Under the pieces are notes generated by a model. That model saw only the letters and a program-made list of their open reading frames with translations. It ran no database searches and had not been told where the DNA came from. Positions 3,278-43,314 of a DNA stretch of 43,431 nt are shown piece after piece. Origin of the DNA: Microscillaceae bacterium (GTDB taxonomy: Bacteria > Bacteroidota > Bacteroidia > Cytophagales > Microscillaceae); NCBI GenBank assembly GCA_025455045.1, contig JALONJ010000009.1, positions 1 to 43,431 of the forward strand. The letters run 5' to 3'. Numbering within the stretch: the stretch's first letter is position 1; every line of letters begins with the position of its first letter. The translations under genes were made by a program, and so were the position numbers.

Positions 3278-3683
3278 GGCACAAAATAAAACGATACTGG
3301 GTGCATTTCAAATTTACTACCTATCACCCTCTCTTTCGGAGAGGGCAGGGTGAGGCAAAAGAAATGCGTAAATTTGAAATGCGCCCACGATACTTAAATT
3401 GTTGTTGTTAAAAGTGATACAAACACTTGATAATCAAGCATTTACAGAAATTTCATTTGCAAAAGCTAAGGCAAGAATAAACTATTTAAACACCAAGAAC
3501 ACCAAGAAAATACCCACAAAGCCCACCAAGACCTTAGTGCTTCTTTGCGATTACCTTTATGAGCTTTGTGGTAAATTGGACAGTATTAGTTGTAAGTGAT
3601 TGATTATCCGCCGGAGGCGGATTACCAAGTAATTAACTAAAAAACTCGAAACTGCCCAAACTATTGTTCATAAAACCATTTTC
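3278..3683. other. Intergenic region with several repeats
   Basis: The gap holds the 88 bp inverted-repeat element (3299-3386) and a TGATAATCA core at 3428-3436. It also has a CACCAAGAACACCAAG-type low-complexity tract around 3492-3530 and a hairpin ATCCGCC/GGCGGAT at 3606-3622. Near 3650-3665 is AAACTGCCC..ACTATTG, resembling one end of the paired-palindrome elements at 20060 and 35183. I do not accept any gene here. Confidence 0.6.
3299..3386. mobile_element. Short inverted-repeat element (family A), non-coding
   Basis: GGGTGCATTTCAAATTTAC at 3299-3317 is matched in reverse complement by GTAAATTTGAAATGCGCCC at 3368-3386 (18 of 19 bases). The middle holds a perfect hairpin CCCTCTC-tttc-GGAGAGGG. 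It has no coding capacity, so it would be a MITE-like or structured intergenic repeat. A second whole copy is at 40421-40510, a truncated one ends at 139, and a decayed one lies near 824-902. Confidence 0.75.
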
Positions 3684-5591
3684 TTAAAACAAAACCTGAC
3701 ATTGGGGCATACGTTTTTTGATTTCGGCGATTTTTTTATGCAAAGGATTGTTGCGAATATCCAAATACTTTAGTCGGGGCAATTGAAAAAGGCTTTCGGG
3801 CAAACGGCTGAGTTTGTTTCGAGAGAGGTGCAAATATTTTAAATGACTTAAATTGCCGATTTCTTCGGGCAAGTCTGCCAAACGATTGCTTGAAAAATTG
3901 AAATCTTCTAAATTTTGCAACTCGCAGACTATCGCCGGAAAATCAGGAAAAGAATTGCGCATCAAATTGAGGGTTTGTAAATTTTGCAACTCAGCAAGCG
4001 TATTGGGCAAAGTTTGTAAGCGATTATTTTGCAAATACAAAACCTTTAATGCCGGAAAAAGGCGAATATTGGCTTCCAGATGCTCTAATTGATAATCGGC
4101 TAAAGGTAAGACCCGATTGTGAATTAGTTTGCGACAAACTTCTACAAAACCCTGCGGAAATCCCAAACAATACTTTGCGCCGATTTGATGGCTACGATAA
4201 AAATGCAAACCCAAGTTATCGGCATCTATTTGCTCAATTTCCAAATTTTTGAGGTAGAGATACATACTGGCTTCAGCCGCTTGCGCATACCAACTACGGC
4301 AATTTGCCTTCAAATGGATATATACTTGCTCAGGCATAAATTTTTGGATAACTCGCTCGGCTAGGTTTTTGATACTTGTATTAGGATTCCAAAGATACAA
4401 CAACAAAATATCGTACAAATAAATTTCATTAATCCCCCCTCCTAGTGCCATTTCCAAGCCTAGTTGCTGATTCGGTACTTCGGGACTACGCAATAAACCG
4501 GCTAAATTTTGGGCTAGTTGGCGGGTTTCATCATCGTTTTTGGCTAAATAATAGTTCGCAATATCTTGATAATAGGCTAACAAATGCCCAATTGCCAACA
4601 AAGGTTTTTGCGTATCAAGTGCCAATTTGAGTAGTTTTTGCGGTTTATCACCCAAAACTATCCAATCTACTTTCGCATCAAGGCGAGTGGCGAATCGGAA
4701 GTTTTTTTCCTCAAGTGTAGCTTGTATGCCCTCCCAATCGCTCAAATTCGAAGTACCAGCTACAAACAATGTAAGCAACTGATTATCAGGCTTTTGCAAA
4801 AAAAGATTGGTATTTTTTTGATGCAAATAATCCAAAGTTTGTTGTCGCAAGCCCAAATGTTCGGCATTTAATCCAGTCAAAATTTCGGCAAAACTTCCCA
4901 ATGTTTCGGCAAGTTCAAATTTGCCCAAAAAAATTTGTAGATATACTTTTCGAAGTTCAGATGAGATTTGTTTTTTTTGAAAATATTGTAATAAGGGTAC
5001 AATTTTTCGTGAGTTTTGCCCCAATGAATTGTAAAAAGGTGTAAACCCAAAATGCGCATTTTCCAAATTAAGCAACGCAAAATTTAAAGGTAATTGCTTG
5101 ATTTGGGTATTGGTAAGTATCAGCTTTCGCAACATTTCCAATTGCCCAATTGTTTCGGGCAGGCTCTCGATTGGTAAATTTTCAAGGTCTAAATGCTTCA
5201 AATTTTTTAGCTCGCCGATTTCAGGCGGCAAAACTTTAATTTTGGTATTTTTTAAAGACAATTGCGCTAAATTTTGCAAATTTCCAATCTGTGGCTTTAT
5301 ACTTTTGAGATGGCTATGCTCTAGACTCAAAGCAGTAAGTTGGGTCAATTGATAAATAAACTCGGGAATTTCTTGAGCAAATCGGCTCAAATGCAGTTTT
5401 CTGAGCTTGGGCAATTGCTTTATGCAGCTCGGAATTTGTTCACCAACAAAGCCAGTCAAATGAAGATACTCCAAATTTTGCAATTCTGACAAACCCGAAA
5501 TATCCAAATTGTCGGTAAAATGCAAATACAAGTAAACAACTTTAGTCGGGTTTCTGAGGGCAGTTTCTAAATCGTAAGTGTATTGCGCCAT
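3684..5591 (-). CDS. Leucine-rich repeat protein with BRCT-like central domain
   Basis: The product is 635 residues with no signal peptide or membrane segment, so probably cytoplasmic. Residues 18-185 form about seven leucine-rich repeats of the L..L..L.L..N.I..LP..I type. Residues 505-620 form five more, the best being LKYLHLSRNKLSRLPESL. Between them, residues about 272-342 resemble a BRCT fold: LLTLFVAGT start, then TLEEKNFRFATRL, then KVDWIVLGDKP..KLLKALD-like and a final LLAIGHLLAYY. Residues 343-500 are helical and unassigned. LRRs normally bind proteins and BRCT domains bind phosphoproteins or DNA ends, so a scaffold is plausible. The LRR call is sure; the BRCT call is by eye. The gene stands alone between repeat-bearing gaps. 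Confidence 0.85.
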   Translation of the reverse strand: MAQYTYDLETALRNPTKVVYLYLHFTDNLDISGLSELQNLEYLHLTGFVGEQIPSCIKQLPKLRKLHLSRFAQEIPEFIYQLTQLTALSLEHSHLKSIKPQIGNLQNLAQLSLKNTKIKVLPPEIGELKNLKHLDLENLPIESLPETIGQLEMLRKLILTNTQIKQLPLNFALLNLENAHFGFTPFYNSLGQNSRKIVPLLQYFQKKQISSELRKVYLQIFLGKFELAETLGSFAEILTGLNAEHLGLRQQTLDYLHQKNTNLFLQKPDNQLLTLFVAGTSNLSDWEGIQATLEEKNFRFATRLDAKVDWIVLGDKPQKLLKLALDTQKPLLAIGHLLAYYQDIANYYLAKNDDETRQLAQNLAGLLRSPEVPNQQLGLEMALGGGINEIYLYDILLLYLWNPNTSIKNLAERVIQKFMPEQVYIHLKANCRSWYAQAAEASMYLYLKNLEIEQIDADNLGLHFYRSHQIGAKYCLGFPQGFVEVCRKLIHNRVLPLADYQLEHLEANIRLFPALKVLYLQNNRLQTLPNTLAELQNLQTLNLMRNSFPDFPAIVCELQNLEDFNFSSNRLADLPEEIGNLSHLKYLHLSRNKLSRLPESLFQLPRLKYLDIRNNPLHKKIAEIKKRMPQCQVLF

Positions 5592-5616
5592 AAATAAATG
5601 CTAAAAACGAATTAAT

Positions 5617-5690
5617 AGTTAAGTTATTGATAATCAGGTAATTACAATATTTTTTTATAAACCATTGATTATCAGTAAGTTATGTACTAA
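5617..5690. repeat. Pair of TGATWATCA palindromic repeats
   Basis: There are two cores 38 bases apart, TGATAATCA at 5628-5636 and TGATTATCA at 5666-5674, each with TAA/TTA arms. They lie between divergent genes. The pair resembles those at 20137/20183, 26538/26583, 35231/35275 and 39984/40029. Confidence 0.8.
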
Positions 5691-13980: not shown

Positions 13981-14095
13981 TCACCTAACAATCAGTCATT
14001 TATGTAACGCAGGCTGTCTAGCCTGCACCCGCAAATGAGTTTAGACTTAGCATAAAGCTAGACTTTACTCAAAATAGGTGAAGAAGCAAAACAAT
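13981..14095. repeat. Variant palindrome plus diverged GCAGGCT-hairpin repeat
   Basis: A variant core (TAACAATCA, about 13987-13995) is followed directly by GTAACGCAGGCTGTCTAGCC from 14004. That phrase begins the repeat duplicated at 14801-14990. The rest of this copy (AAATGAGTT..AGACTTAG..AAAGCTA) is recognisably similar but diverged. The hairpin GCAGGCT-gtct-AGCCTGC has a 7-base stem. Confidence 0.65.
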
Positions 14096-14777: not shown

Positions 14778-14800
14778 GTTATAAATTATTAATTCTTTAG

Positions 14801-14990
14801 TAGTTTGTAGGAAAATTGTAACGCAGGCTGTCTAGCCTGCCCGCGTAAATGAGTTGGGACTTAGAATAAAAGCTAAATCTTCCTAAAAATGGGCGTAGTT
14901 TGTAGGAAAATTGTAACGCAGGCTGTCTAGCCTGCCCGCGTAAATGAGTTGAGACTTAGAATAAAAGCTAAATCTTCCTAAAAATGGGCA
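14801..14990. repeat. Tandem duplication of a 95 bp hairpin-bearing unit
   Basis: Units at 14801-14895 and 14896-14990 are identical at all but about two positions (gttGgg/gttGag and the last base). Each contains the GCAGGCT-gtct-AGCCTGC hairpin. A diverged third copy lies at 14004-14090, and a related hairpin occurs twice on the other strand at 37977-38088. The second unit ends 10 bases before the 3' end of lnt. Confidence 0.9.
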
Positions 14991-19867: not shown

Positions 19868-20348
19868 ATTACTTTATTAATTTGCAATGTACCTGTTGGA
19901 GTTAATTCTTTGATAAATTTATTAAAATCAAAAAAAAGCATTATATTTCACTTTTGCAAAAGCTATACCGCTTGTGATAGCCCGCAGTATTTTTCAAACA
20001 TTATAACGTCAATGCTAAAAATATAGTCTATTTTGCAGTCTTTTTTTCAAGTTTAAGTATCAATAGTTCGGTAGTTTCTAGTTTCTAAGCCCCTGCTCCC
20101 GGAGGGGGTTCTATTCTGAGTTATTTGCTAAGCATTTGATAATCAGGTAGTTATATAAAATATTTAAAATAACATAACCTATTGATTATCAATTACTTAT
20201 AGAGACTGTCCGAAGTATTGAGTATCAAATATACCTTTTTCTGCGAACTTATTGACTTTTTAGTTAAAAAAATCAATAAAGCAATTGTTATCAAGGCTAT
20301 TGAGCTTAATTTTCTACTATTTAAAAATTCCTTATTCAACTCCGGAAA
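19868..20348. other. Intergenic region carrying a paired-palindrome element
   Basis: Most of the gap is the element at 20060-20221. The rest is AT-rich with no gene. The promoter of the WG-repeat gene should lie at the left side but cannot be placed. Confidence 0.5.
20060..20221. mobile_element. Paired-palindrome element with terminal inverted repeats (family B)
   Basis: TCAATAGTTCGGTAGTTT (20060-20077) and GACTGTCCGAAGTATTGA (20204-20221) are imperfect terminal inverted repeats. Between them are two TGATWATCA palindromes, cores 20137-20145 and 20183-20191, separated by ATATAAAATATTTAAAAT-like sequence. The copy at 35183-35313 has the same order and spacing. This copy has about 30 extra bases (GCCCCTGCTCCCGGAGGGGG region) near the left end. 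It is non-coding. Confidence 0.75.
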
Positions 20349-26463: not shown

Positions 26464-26527
26464 TGCTTGACAAAAATGGATTGAAATAATAGGCTTATAC
26501 AATAGGTCAAATGATTCAGATTTATTC

Positions 26528-26607
26528 GTTAAACACCTGATAATCAGACAGTTATACAAACATTTAAAATAACCTAACCTATTGATTATCAATGATTTAC
26601 AAAAAAC
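26528..26607. repeat. Pair of TGATWATCA palindromic repeats
   Basis: Cores are at 26538-26546 (TGATAATCA) and 26583-26591 (TGATTATCA), with CATTTAAAATAACCTAACCT between them. Spacer and order match the pairs inside the family B elements at 20060 and 35183, but the TTCGG-type ends are absent here. Confidence 0.8.
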
Positions 26608-34885: not shown

Positions 34886-35054
34886 TGTTGTTCATTTTTA
34901 AATAGTCGGCAAAATAAGCCTCTAATTTGGAAATCAAAAATAGAAAAAAATATTATTTTTTTTTAATATAATAACCTTACTTCAATGAAGTTTGTGATTC
35001 TGATTTTTGAATTAAATTATAAACCCCTGATTATCAATGAATTATAAAAATTGC

Positions 35055-35096
35055 AACCCAGCCTTCAGGCTGTAGGAGGCATAGCCTAAAGGCTGT
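35055..35096. repeat. Two small AGCCT/AGGCT hairpins
   Basis: CAGCCT-tc-AGGCTG (35059-35072) and AGCCT-aa-AGGCT (35083-35094) stand side by side. They resemble the GCAGGCT hairpins at 14004, 14820, 37977 and 38066 in sequence theme but not in flanks. Confidence 0.6.
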
Positions 35097-35182
35097 GGTA
35101 CATTCCATTTGTCAAAAGTCAAAGATTATCAATTACTTACAAAAACTACCCGAATTATTGTAAAACCATAAGCTCATAAAAA

Positions 35183-35313
35183 TCAATAGTTCGGACAGTT
35201 TCTAGTTTCTAGTTATTTACTAAGTATCTGATAGTCAGCTCGTTACATAAAATATTTAAAATAGCATAACTAGCTGATAATCAATTACTTATAAAAACTG
35301 CCCGAAGTATTGA
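35183..35313. mobile_element. Paired-palindrome element with terminal inverted repeats (family B)
   Basis: TCAATAGTTCGGACAGTTT (35183-35201) and AAACTGCCCGAAGTATTGA (35295-35313) are terminal inverted repeats, 17 of 19 bases matching. Inside are a variant core TGATAGTCA (about 35229-35237) and an exact TGATAATCA (35275-35283), joined by ATAAAATATTTAAAATAGC-like sequence. It is the cleanest copy of the family also seen at 20060-20221, and is non-coding. Confidence 0.78.
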
Positions 35314-35341
35314 AAAATAATGTGAGATTAAAATACAAAGC

Positions 35342-39643: not shown

Positions 39644-40632
39644 ATTTATTTTTAAATTTTTGAATTGGCAAATTTTCAAATTATGATTTTAATTCAATTT
39701 CGGGCTTTTGATTTTTACATTTATCATTCATAAAATATCAAAATCCTGTTTTTGAATGTTCTAAAATAAAGCATAAGAAAATCAAAAAGAAGAATAATGG
39801 AAAATATTTTCATTAAAATATTTTCCTAAAGTTGATGAAGGCATAAGAATTATCAAATGATTTAATTTGAAGGTGTACTGATGTGCTAATTAAAAACCTG
39901 ATTATCAGGTAATTACAAAATATAAACTCTTCAATATGTGTGAAAGTTTTTAAAAGTTAATTTATTGAAATACATAACTACTTGACAATCAGCAAGTTAC
40001 ATAATTTAGATTAAAAAACATAACTTGTTGATAATCAGCTAGTTAGCTATTTTTAATAATTGGAAAATTAATTTTGTTACACATATTGCTCTTAAGTTGT
40101 TTTTTAATCGTTCCTATGCTTTTAAATCCAGTTTTTGAATATTTAAAAATCGTTGCGTGATTATGTAATAGTAAAATAGACCAGCAATTCTCACTTTGTT
40201 ATATCTAACTTAGACAGTACAAACGGATTAAATTCTTCCCCCCGTTTTTGACTATAATTTGAGGAGATTATTTACCTAAATTTGGGCTTGACTATGAAAA
40301 ATATGAAAACAAATTTTGATTACCAAATTTGGTTTAATAAAATCTCTTAAATATTTGATTATCAATAGATTATGGGTGTATTTTTTAATAATCAATGGGC
40401 AATTTATTTCTCAATAAATAGGGTGCATTTCAAATTTACGCGGTTTCTATTGCCTCACCCTAGCCCTCTCCGAAGGCGAGGATATAAGGTGGTAAATTTG
40501 AGATGTACCCCAATAAATACTTCATTCTTTTTGGTCTGTCAAGGTAGCAGTATGATAAAAACAGGGAGAAGAAATTTTGGCTTTTGAACTGCCTTAGATA
40601 GAGATATTCAGAAGCAATTTTGCCCAAGTTGC
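39644..40632. other. Large intergenic region next to the CRISPR array
   Basis: This is the longest gene-free stretch outside the array. It contains exact cores TGATTATCA at 39899-39907, TGATAATCA at 40029-40037 and TGATTATCA at 40356-40364. A variant TGACAATCA is near 39984-39992, forming a pair with the 40029 copy. The family A element lies at 40421-40510. The phrase GTGTACTGATGTGCTAAT near 39871-39889 recurs elsewhere. Apparent reading frames at 40372-40587 run through these repeats and are not accepted. Confidence 0.6.
40421..40510. mobile_element. Short inverted-repeat element (family A), non-coding
   Basis: GGGTGCATTTCAAATTTAC (40421-40439) and GTAAATTTGAGATGTACCC (40492-40510) are terminal inverted repeats with two mismatches. 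The centre holds the CACCCTAGCCCTCTC-type arm and a matching GAGG. Compared with the 3299-3386 copy the centre is inverted, meaning the element lies in the opposite orientation. Confidence 0.75.
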
Positions 40633-40661
40633 GTTTCAATTCCAATAGGATCAATTAAAAG
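40633..40661 (-). repeat. Degenerate terminal CRISPR repeat (leader-distal)
   Basis: This copy differs from the other 41 at two positions (GGATC for GGTTC inside, and G as first base). Read on the minus strand it ends in ATTGAAAC. Degeneration of the oldest, leader-distal repeat is usual. Confidence 0.9.
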
Positions 40662-43314
40662 CTTATGCTTATGGCTGGGAATACTTGCTGTAGCCTATTT
40701 CAATTCCAATAGGTTCAATTAAAAGTAAAAGAGATGCGCGAGCAAAACGTCAAACTACAGTATTTCAATTCCAATAGGTTCAATTAAAAGGAATTGAAAT
40801 TTTTTTCGTTTCAATTCTTGTTTTTCATTTCAATTCCAATAGGTTCAATTAAAAGTTGATAGAAGCATTAAAATCAAAAGCCACATCTAAATTTCAATTC
40901 CAATAGGTTCAATTAAAAGCGTACAGGATAAGAATGGAGTGCGCCGGTTCTCGGATTTCAATTCCAATAGGTTCAATTAAAAGACATTTAGGTTATCCTA
41001 ACCTTGAAATTATTTCTGCTATTTCAATTCCAATAGGTTCAATTAAAAGGACCGAACAACAATGGTACAACGCAATCAAAAAAATTTCAATTCCAATAGG
41101 TTCAATTAAAAGCTGCCTTTTAGTTTATTGATTTAAGCAACCGCTTCGGATTTCAATTCCAATAGGTTCAATTAAAAGTGTAAATCTGTGGTTGGCTGGT
41201 TGGTTTGTCTAGGTATTTCAATTCCAATAGGTTCAATTAAAAGGTTACTTGAATCGGATTAATCAAATGATAGCTAAAAAATTTCAATTCCAATAGGTTC
41301 AATTAAAAGTAATGAACCGAGTAATGATTTTGGAAAATTTTGGAGTATTTCAATTCCAATAGGTTCAATTAAAAGCGGGTTAATAAAGACTTTCATTGAT
41401 TTGTAAGTTTAATTTCAATTCCAATAGGTTCAATTAAAAGCTATTGAGGCTAAAATGAATGACTACCTGCGCCGAAAATTTCAATTCCAATAGGTTCAAT
41501 TAAAAGGGCACTACGCTCACCATTACGCACCGAGATTCGCTCAATTTCAATTCCAATAGGTTCAATTAAAAGCATTGACTGATTTAATCAAAGAAATTGA
41601 AATCAAATTTCAATTCCAATAGGTTCAATTAAAAGTATACTCCGCCCTGTTGAACAATCTAGTAAATAACGATTTCAATTCCAATAGGTTCAATTAAAAG
41701 CGGGAATGCGCCCAAATCCAATACTTTCTGATAAACATTTCAATTCCAATAGGTTCAATTAAAAGTTCCAAAAGTTTTGTAATGCAATAATTACAAGCAT
41801 ATTTCAATTCCAATAGGTTCAATTAAAAGCTCAAAAGAAAAATGCTGGGCAATCCGTATTTATATTTCAATTCCAATAGGTTCAATTAAAAGTCCACTGC
41901 TCCTTGGCGTATCGGAGCGGACTTTTAAATTTCAATTCCAATAGGTTCAATTAAAAGAAAATCAAACTCAATGAGATTTTAAAATTTCTTGAGCTATTTC
42001 AATTCCAATAGGTTCAATTAAAAGCAATCTGCAATACTTAGATATGTTTATTAGTGATACATTTCAATTCCAATAGGTTCAATTAAAAGCAATTCGAACT
42101 AATTGAATTGGCTAATTTTATCAAATTTCAATTCCAATAGGTTCAATTAAAAGGAATGTCGGTTGTGCCAACGATTATCCAATCTGCATATTTCAATTCC
42201 AATAGGTTCAATTAAAAGAATGTGACATATAACAGAGCCTTTGTTGTAAAACGATTTCAATTCCAATAGGTTCAATTAAAAGCAAGGTAAAAAATTTTGT
42301 ACGTTTAGTATTGCCATATTTCAATTCCAATAGGTTCAATTAAAAGATGGCATTTATCAAAGTTAAAGAATCGATATTTATATTTCAATTCCAATAGGTT
42401 CAATTAAAAGAGCTAGTCAAATATGGCTAGAAAGTTTGTATTACTTATTTCAATTCCAATAGGTTCAATTAAAAGCCAAACTGATGCGTAATCAAATCCA
42501 AGCCTATTTATTTCAATTCCAATAGGTTCAATTAAAAGCCGGTTTAGGAGTGCCGACAATGGACGGGTTTCACGCATTTCAATTCCAATAGGTTCAATTA
42601 AAAGTTTTTCTACCTTACGCTTAGTTTTGAGGCGCGTAAGATTTCAATTCCAATAGGTTCAATTAAAAGCAAGGTTGGTTTTGGCACTCTGATTTTAATT
42701 TCATATTTCAATTCCAATAGGTTCAATTAAAAGAATTATCGCTCTAATTACCTTTAAACTAGGTTCGCTATTTCAATTCCAATAGGTTCAATTAAAAGAG
42801 AAGTACAGCCGATAAAATTTGAAAAAATCCGAGTATTTCAATTCCAATAGGTTCAATTAAAAGGTTAATACCAGCATCTTGCAATTCAAGAACTGACTTA
42901 TTTCAATTCCAATAGGTTCAATTAAAAGAAACAATAAAAAAATGAGCGATGTATTTTTAAAATCATTTCAATTCCAATAGGTTCAATTAAAAGCCTCAAT
43001 TCCCTCGATTTCCGAACCGCCAAAACTATTTCAATTCCAATAGGTTCAATTAAAAGTTGAGTTTGCCGAAAAATCAAAAAGCCCAACGGTTATTTCAATT
43101 CCAATAGGTTCAATTAAAAGGTTGCACGGGGGCGTTGAAATTTAGCAGCCTTGCTTATTTCAATTCCAATAGGTTCAATTAAAAGTTCCTGTGAATTTTG
43201 TGATGTAAAACAGCTTCGTTATTTCAATTCCAATAGGTTCAATTAAAAGGCAAGCTAAAGCTCAAGCGCAGTTAAGAGGTTCGGTATTTCAATTCCAATA
43301 GGTTCAATTAAAAG
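40633..43314 (-). CRISPR. CRISPR array, 42 repeats and 41 spacers
   Basis: A 29-base repeat (plus strand ATTTCAATTC...CAATTAAAAG) recurs 42 times with 41 spacers of 34-38 bases, all different by eye. Read on the minus strand the repeat ends in ATTGAAAT, the 8-base 5' handle typical of crRNAs from type I and III systems. The only degenerate repeat is the leftmost (40633-40661), with G for A at position 1 and A for T at position 18. Both facts say the array is transcribed leftward with the leader at the right edge. The repeat is nearly unstructured, which needs a Cas6-type processing enzyme. Repeat and spacer lengths suit subtype I-B or type III, but no cas gene is in the window, so the subtype is open. 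Confidence 0.98.

Follow-up and report, generated by a model that had tools for sequence, protein, structure and literature searches.

The window analysed here (43,431 nucleotides, contig 130 of a Microscillaceae draft genome of 6.8 Mb in 697 contigs) contains the palindrome TGATWATCA 40 times, compared with 0.5 expected, and at two places a pair of these palindromes is enclosed by inverted repeats. This raises the question of whether the pairs belong to a mobile element and what role the palindromes might have in it. An earlier note on this DNA had described both places as related, MITE-like elements. MITE copies were counted in a sample of 1.063 Mb from 49 contigs (about 16% of the genome), while the palindrome consensus was built from 762 core sites in 0.87 Mb. 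The reversed pattern served as control for the MITE end counts.

MITE copies and remnants in the window

Both elements are found, each with terminal inverted repeats and paired palindromes, at limits corrected to 20061–20220 and 35184–35312, the true ends lying one base further inward because the outer T/A is part of the target duplication. The two are close relatives of each other and belong to a real MITE family, whose ends in the window are CAATAGTTCGGACAGTTT and CAATACTTCGGRCAGTTT. Most of the length of copy 35184–35312 is matched by at least 39 other places in the genome (BLAST), and its left palindrome core, TGATAGTCA, has a single mismatch. Copy 20061–20220 has an extra GC-rich hairpin at about 20087–20112 and a small deletion in the left terminal repeat. 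The features are as follows.

35184–35312, plus strand: full MITE copy, short form, 129 bp (profile, 119 bits)
35178–35183 (left) and 35313–35318 (right), plus strand: target duplication AAAAAT, exact over 6 bp (sequence)
35184–35201, plus strand: left terminal repeat CAATAGTTCGGACAGTTT (sequence)
35295–35312, minus strand: right terminal repeat CAATACTTCGGGCAGTTT (sequence)
35221–35245, no strand: left palindrome of copy 35184–35312, putative double IHF-type site with one mismatch, TAAGTATCTGATAGTCAGCTCGTTA (sequence and consensus)
35267–35291, no strand: right palindrome of the same copy, TAACTAGCTGATAATCAATTACTTA (sequence and consensus)
20061–20220, plus strand: full MITE copy, long form, 160 bp (profile, 96 bits, and sequence)
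20056–20060 (left) and 20221–20225 (right), plus strand: target duplication AGTAT (sequence)
20129–20153, no strand: left palindrome of copy 20061–20220, TAAGCATTTGATAATCAGGTAGTTA (sequence)
20175–20199, no strand: right palindrome of the same copy, TAACCTATTGATTATCAATTACTTA (sequence)
26514–26605, plus strand: remnant with both palindromes and link, ends gone (profile, 34 bits)
39975–40046, plus strand: likely remnant with both palindromes and a diverged link (profile, 25 bits)
35101–35160, plus strand: right-hand MITE part, palindrome cut internally by a TTTGACTTTTGACAAA element (profile, 24 bits, and sequence)
3577–3666, minus strand: left-hand MITE part with a GC-rich hairpin insert in its palindrome (profile, 22 bits, and sequence)
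5558–5682, minus strand: doubtful remnant, palindrome pair at spacing 38 (profile, 15 bits, palindrome-driven)

The partial copies previously placed at 35124–35160 and 3650–3665 are thus real (24 and 22 bits, respectively). The further proposal that bare palindrome pairs of the same spacing are decay products holds in part: judged by its link (75% identical), the pair 26538/26583 clearly reads as a MITE remnant, and 39984/40029 (link 67% identical) is likely one, whereas 5628/5666 is doubtful, with a spacing of 38 and not 46.

Elsewhere, the window contains a long CRISPR-type array (40633–43000, about 40 copies of the repeat ATTTCAATTCCAATAGGTTCAATTAAAAG) and, at 14800–14989, two tandem copies of a 95-bp unit that are 99% identical and include CAGGCTGTCTAGCCTG; the unit recurs in diverged form at 13986.

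Copy number and mobility of the family

The family ends are 18-bp terminal inverted repeats, CAATA[GC]TTCGGRCAGTTT. Allowing at most one mismatch, this end sequence occurs 548 times genome-wide, compared with 0 for the reversed-pattern control and a maximum of 3 in any of 56 relatives. By BLAST, 49 matches were obtained genome-wide, about 40 of them covering most of the element, and many copies are about 84–97% identical to the window copy. The profile search of 1.06 Mb yielded 148 copies or fragments, 58 of them full length, excluding that the genome holds no further copies; scaled genome-wide, this corresponds to about 950 copies or fragments and about 370 full-length copies, estimates that may be somewhat high as the sampled contigs were mostly picked for containing the MITE. 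Two size classes are present, mostly 122–139 and about 151–175 bp, the left arm of the longer one usually containing a GC-rich hairpin, for example, in the copy starting at 20061. The element is short and without coding capacity, no transposase frame being found inside it, and 146 of the 148 copies or fragments lie outside long ORFs.

The MITE-like mobile nature suggested in the earlier note is confirmed by the true ends and hundreds of copies as well as by target duplications and unfilled sites. An exact target duplication of 5–7 bp flanks 41 of 61 short elements, compared with 0.8 expected from mispaired flanks, and the duplications of the MITE are 5–6 bp long, varied and AT-rich. Unfilled paralogous sites are available for the MITEs in L097 and L032, which lie inside another repeat, other copies of this repeat having no MITE and a single target. 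A search for the family elsewhere gave no match in plasmids and none in 84,980 GTDB genomes (exact pattern); eight matches in viral contigs were rejected as chance ones without MITE structure. In L143 and L060, a MITE end is interrupted by a GGGCGCATTTCAAATTTAC...GTAAATTTGAAATGCGCCC element; for the L143 insertion, there seems to be an 8-bp repeat, GACAGTTT.

Search for a parent transposase

A transposase with ends matching those of the MITE, which the earlier note had proposed to look for, did not turn up between MITE-type ends in the 1.06 Mb read or at the five DDE_Tnp_1 loci, none of which bears MITE ends, and rve and IS1380-type families are absent. As self-comparison of the portion of the draft that was read revealed no assembled multi-copy IS, the absence of a partner is weak evidence. 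Candidates for an autonomous partner deduced from long end pairs were rejected as fortuitous matches spanning host genes or nested elements, and MITE ends with an unusual next base represent nested insertions or further MITE variants, not a partner. The transposase that we infer would act in trans, recognise CAATA[GC]TTCGGRCAGTTT and make 5–6 bp staggered cuts in AT-rich intergenic DNA; it would be expected, bounded by CAATASTTCGGRCAGTTT, in a complete IS set.

Distribution of the palindrome

The palindrome has the two-fold symmetric 25-bp consensus TAANNNNYTGATWATCARNNNNTTA, which is matched 3,697 times in the whole genome (control 0). Among 395 genomes of the phylum, the second-highest count is 111 matches, a slightly looser pattern gives 2–66 per genome in family members, and the palindrome is present at low copy in related genera without the MITE. 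The main contig of genome G437, which belongs to the same order, carries 111 palindromes dispersed over its length, compared with 0 and 1 in two congeners.

The palindrome is no MITE invention, and the MITE is just one among several elements carrying it. In the 1.06-Mb sample, 178 of 1,038 palindromes (about 17%) are within the MITE or its fragments. By flank similarity, 466 of 1,009 lie in register inside repeats, and the palindrome-bearing repeats split into at least 10 communities, most of them not the MITE. Hence, the earlier view of single palindromes as remnants of a mobile composite applies to a minority only and fails as a general explanation, given at least 10 other families and the genera lacking the MITE; its other suggestion, a building block, fits better when taken as one captured by mobile elements. 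Palindrome spacings of 45–46 are strongly over-represented (48 pairs in 1.06 Mb), most other spacings occurring only a few times, and 560 of 583 sampled strict palindromes are outside ORFs. A joined-flank search for the 25-bp palindrome moving alone gave junction-spanning matches that were mostly partial or of low similarity, to the filled site or to other repeats.

In several palindrome families, a long fold-back has the palindrome at its tip, for example, ATACTACTATACA... and CTTCACCACTTTTCAGGAA... Besides, a hairpin unit of about 20 bp, represented by CTCCAAAGGCGGACACGGTC and its variants, interrupts palindromes at one exact point, after TGANWATC and before the A, and is found in both orientations (L118:6563–6680, L130:6271–6376 and window 3577–3666, with unfilled repeats for comparison). 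The right palindrome half is present in 44 of its 54 matches and both halves in 27 of 54. The hairpin unit has the look of a very small insertion unit with the palindrome as its target. In 23 of 38 matches, the palindrome is truncated at TGATWATC where a repeat starting TTTGACTTTTGACAAAT, with a CAGCCTTTAGGCTG hairpin, adjoins it; this repeat is seen at window 35000–35140 and on other contigs.

Resemblance of the palindrome to IHF sites

Read outward from the centre, each palindrome half is WATCARNNNNTTA, in agreement with the published IHF consensus WATCARNNNNTTR (PMC8421141, PMC9519438) at all specified positions and in spacing, mirrored about the central W. The A/G position of the half-site is A in 61% and G in 37% of cases, fitting the A/G choice of IHF (PMC8421141), and the palindrome core, at 9 bp, is as long as the interval separating the two bends that IHF introduces into DNA (PMC8421141, PMC9519438). 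In the sample, the IHF consensus WATCAANNNNTTR is found 1,810 times versus 137, and 1,294 of these sites are mirrored. The presence of the IHF consensus in each palindrome half is new relative to the earlier note, and each MITE most likely carries two double-headed sites, putatively of the IHF/HU type. Presumably, as in the co-crystal, the IHF dyad falls on the W. The IHF of E. coli is asymmetric, with the A-tract on the other side, so that mirrored sites are atypical for it. An FNR box (TTGAT-N4-ATCAA) and a Fur box were considered and rejected, as either spacing or flanking base is wrong.

Searching the assembly with the HU/IHF family model revealed no canonical HU/IHF gene, its matches being limited to an HU-CCDC81/SPOR protein and an IHF/HU-like reading frame broken by a stop codon (L193:1500–1680); a canonical gene may be located in the missing 5% of the assembly or be too diverged.

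We consider it probable that the MITE is moved in trans and carries two symmetric IHF/HU-type sites that are bound and bent. It is a non-autonomous DNA transposon of about 129–162 bp with imperfect fold-back, each half bearing one 25-bp site TAANNNNYTGATWATCARNNNNTTA with centres 46 bp apart, and each site consists of two WATCARNNNNTTR facing outwards from the shared central W. We infer a symmetric IHF/HU-type dimer that binds and bends the palindrome, and the bend may bring the MITE ends together for transposition.

Rather unlikely, albeit the strongest competitor, is an operator of some other dimeric DNA-binding protein, for example, a chromosome-organising factor, with the match to IHF being coincidental. 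Such a protein would be compatible with a symmetric site showing no hairpin covariation, with the 111 copies scattered along the G437 chromosome and with the failure to find a canonical IHF, whereas coincidence hardly accounts for a half-site fitting WATCARNNNNTTR everywhere specified, including the A/G position (PMC8421141).

Constraint on the palindromes

As full-length copies were recognised largely by their ends, the palindromes within them can be scored without much bias. Among the 58 full-length copies, 56 of which were testable for constraint, identity to the consensus amounts to 94.5% for palindrome-defining bases and 93.2% for the ends, compared with 77% for the bases inside the palindrome between the defining ones and 82% for link and left arm. 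Palindrome-defining bases exceed the link with p = 5e-9 (56 testable copies), and 22 of 24 changes at the central W are A to T, compared with a share of 22% in the rest of the element (p = 8e-13); both p-values overstate independence as the copies are related by descent. Likewise, changes at the flanking Y/R positions mostly exchange one pyrimidine for the other or one purine for the other, for example, with T in 30 and C in 28 copies at the Y position beside the left core. In copies with poorer ends (n = 11), the palindromes stay at 92% while the ends drop to 84%, which hints at selection on the palindromes after insertion; the sites seem to be kept under chromosomal selection once the ends decay. 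Part of the constraint could, however, stem from a small number of source copies having multiplied recently.

These values also bear on the simpler assumption of a plain MITE whose palindromes are passive cargo of the founding copy, with nothing binding them. Many copies are indeed young, as judged from their similarity to the window copy, and the HU/IHF family search revealed no binder. Passive cargo is nevertheless improbable, since the defining bases are far better kept than spacers and link, substitutions match the degeneracy that the motif shows across the genome, and the same motif is present in at least 10 other families and in relatives.

The palindrome arms show little or no covariation (z ≤ 2.9 at any position) and, hence, the palindrome reads as a two-fold protein site and not as a hairpin. 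Together with the missing gene-orientation bias, this leads us to reject the palindrome as hairpin or terminator: 53–57% of gaps are occupied in every gene orientation (tandem, convergent and divergent), and a sharp peak at stop codons is not observed. Despite the fold-back of the complete element (z = -6.25), it is therefore very improbable that the elements are transcription terminators or RNA hairpins instead of mobile DNA, all the more so as they have target duplications. A repeat of the BIME/REP type that is mobilised by a RAYT (Y1) transposase, which would likewise explain high-copy paired intergenic palindromes, is hardly conceivable in view of the true ends with 5–6 bp duplications and of arms lacking covariation.

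Significance and comparison with known systems

Taken together, the sequence comparisons suggest that small mobile elements helped to spread IHF-like sites through the chromosome. More tentatively, several unrelated MITE families might independently have carried one symmetric, putatively IHF/HU-type site to thousands of intergenic places within this one genome, thereby building or rebuilding its nucleoid-protein binding map. If true, this would parallel some transposons in animals that spread regulatory sites. From tens of copies in related genera, the palindrome has been amplified to 3,697 strict copies. This offers a natural setting in which to ask if MITE movement is assisted by a nucleoid protein, if the nucleoid map is built by MITEs and if the E. 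coli site has a symmetric counterpart that is recognised by a homodimeric protein of the IHF type.

Paired intergenic palindromes are also characteristic of BIME/REP sequences. However, BIMEs have no terminal repeats or target duplications and REPs are hairpins, whereas both repeats and duplications are present here and the palindromes are not hairpins; due to its ends and duplications, the family is thus not a BIME, and the distinction drawn in the earlier note from true terminal repeats stands (18-bp ends, 5–6 bp duplications). For ERIC of enterobacteria, we know of no IHF-type palindrome pair. ERIC sequences are likewise short, intergenic and present in hundreds of copies, with 711 in Photorhabdus (PMC10969869). 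BrickBuilt of Porphyromonas gingivalis is a Bacteroidota MITE also spreading an unrelated motif along with itself, but its cargo is a 23-bp tandem repeat in 19 copies between ends like ISPg1/ISPg9 (PMC4596501), in contrast to the palindrome pair found here.

Closer still are MITEs with an IHF site. QMITE1 of Coxiella burnetii has a conserved IHF consensus, and bending is thought to help its transposition (PMC5896051), but it is about 400 bp long with other ends and a single site, compared with about 129–162 bp and two sites here. Correia/NEMIS elements of Neisseria (107 and 155 bp forms) are intergenic MITEs of the same size with terminal repeats and target duplication, and the IHF site of the long form has been shown to bind IHF (PMC2229807). 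In contrast to their TA at ends and target, the element described here starts with CAATA and generates a varied 5–6 bp duplication; in contrast to their one IHF site, it has two mirrored, putative IHF-type sites, and its palindrome, unlike the Correia/NEMIS site, is also found in at least 10 other families and at thousands of intergenic places. Hence, a MITE with a single IHF site is of a known kind, and what differs here is that the sites are mirrored, doubled, as conserved as the ends and shared by unrelated elements.
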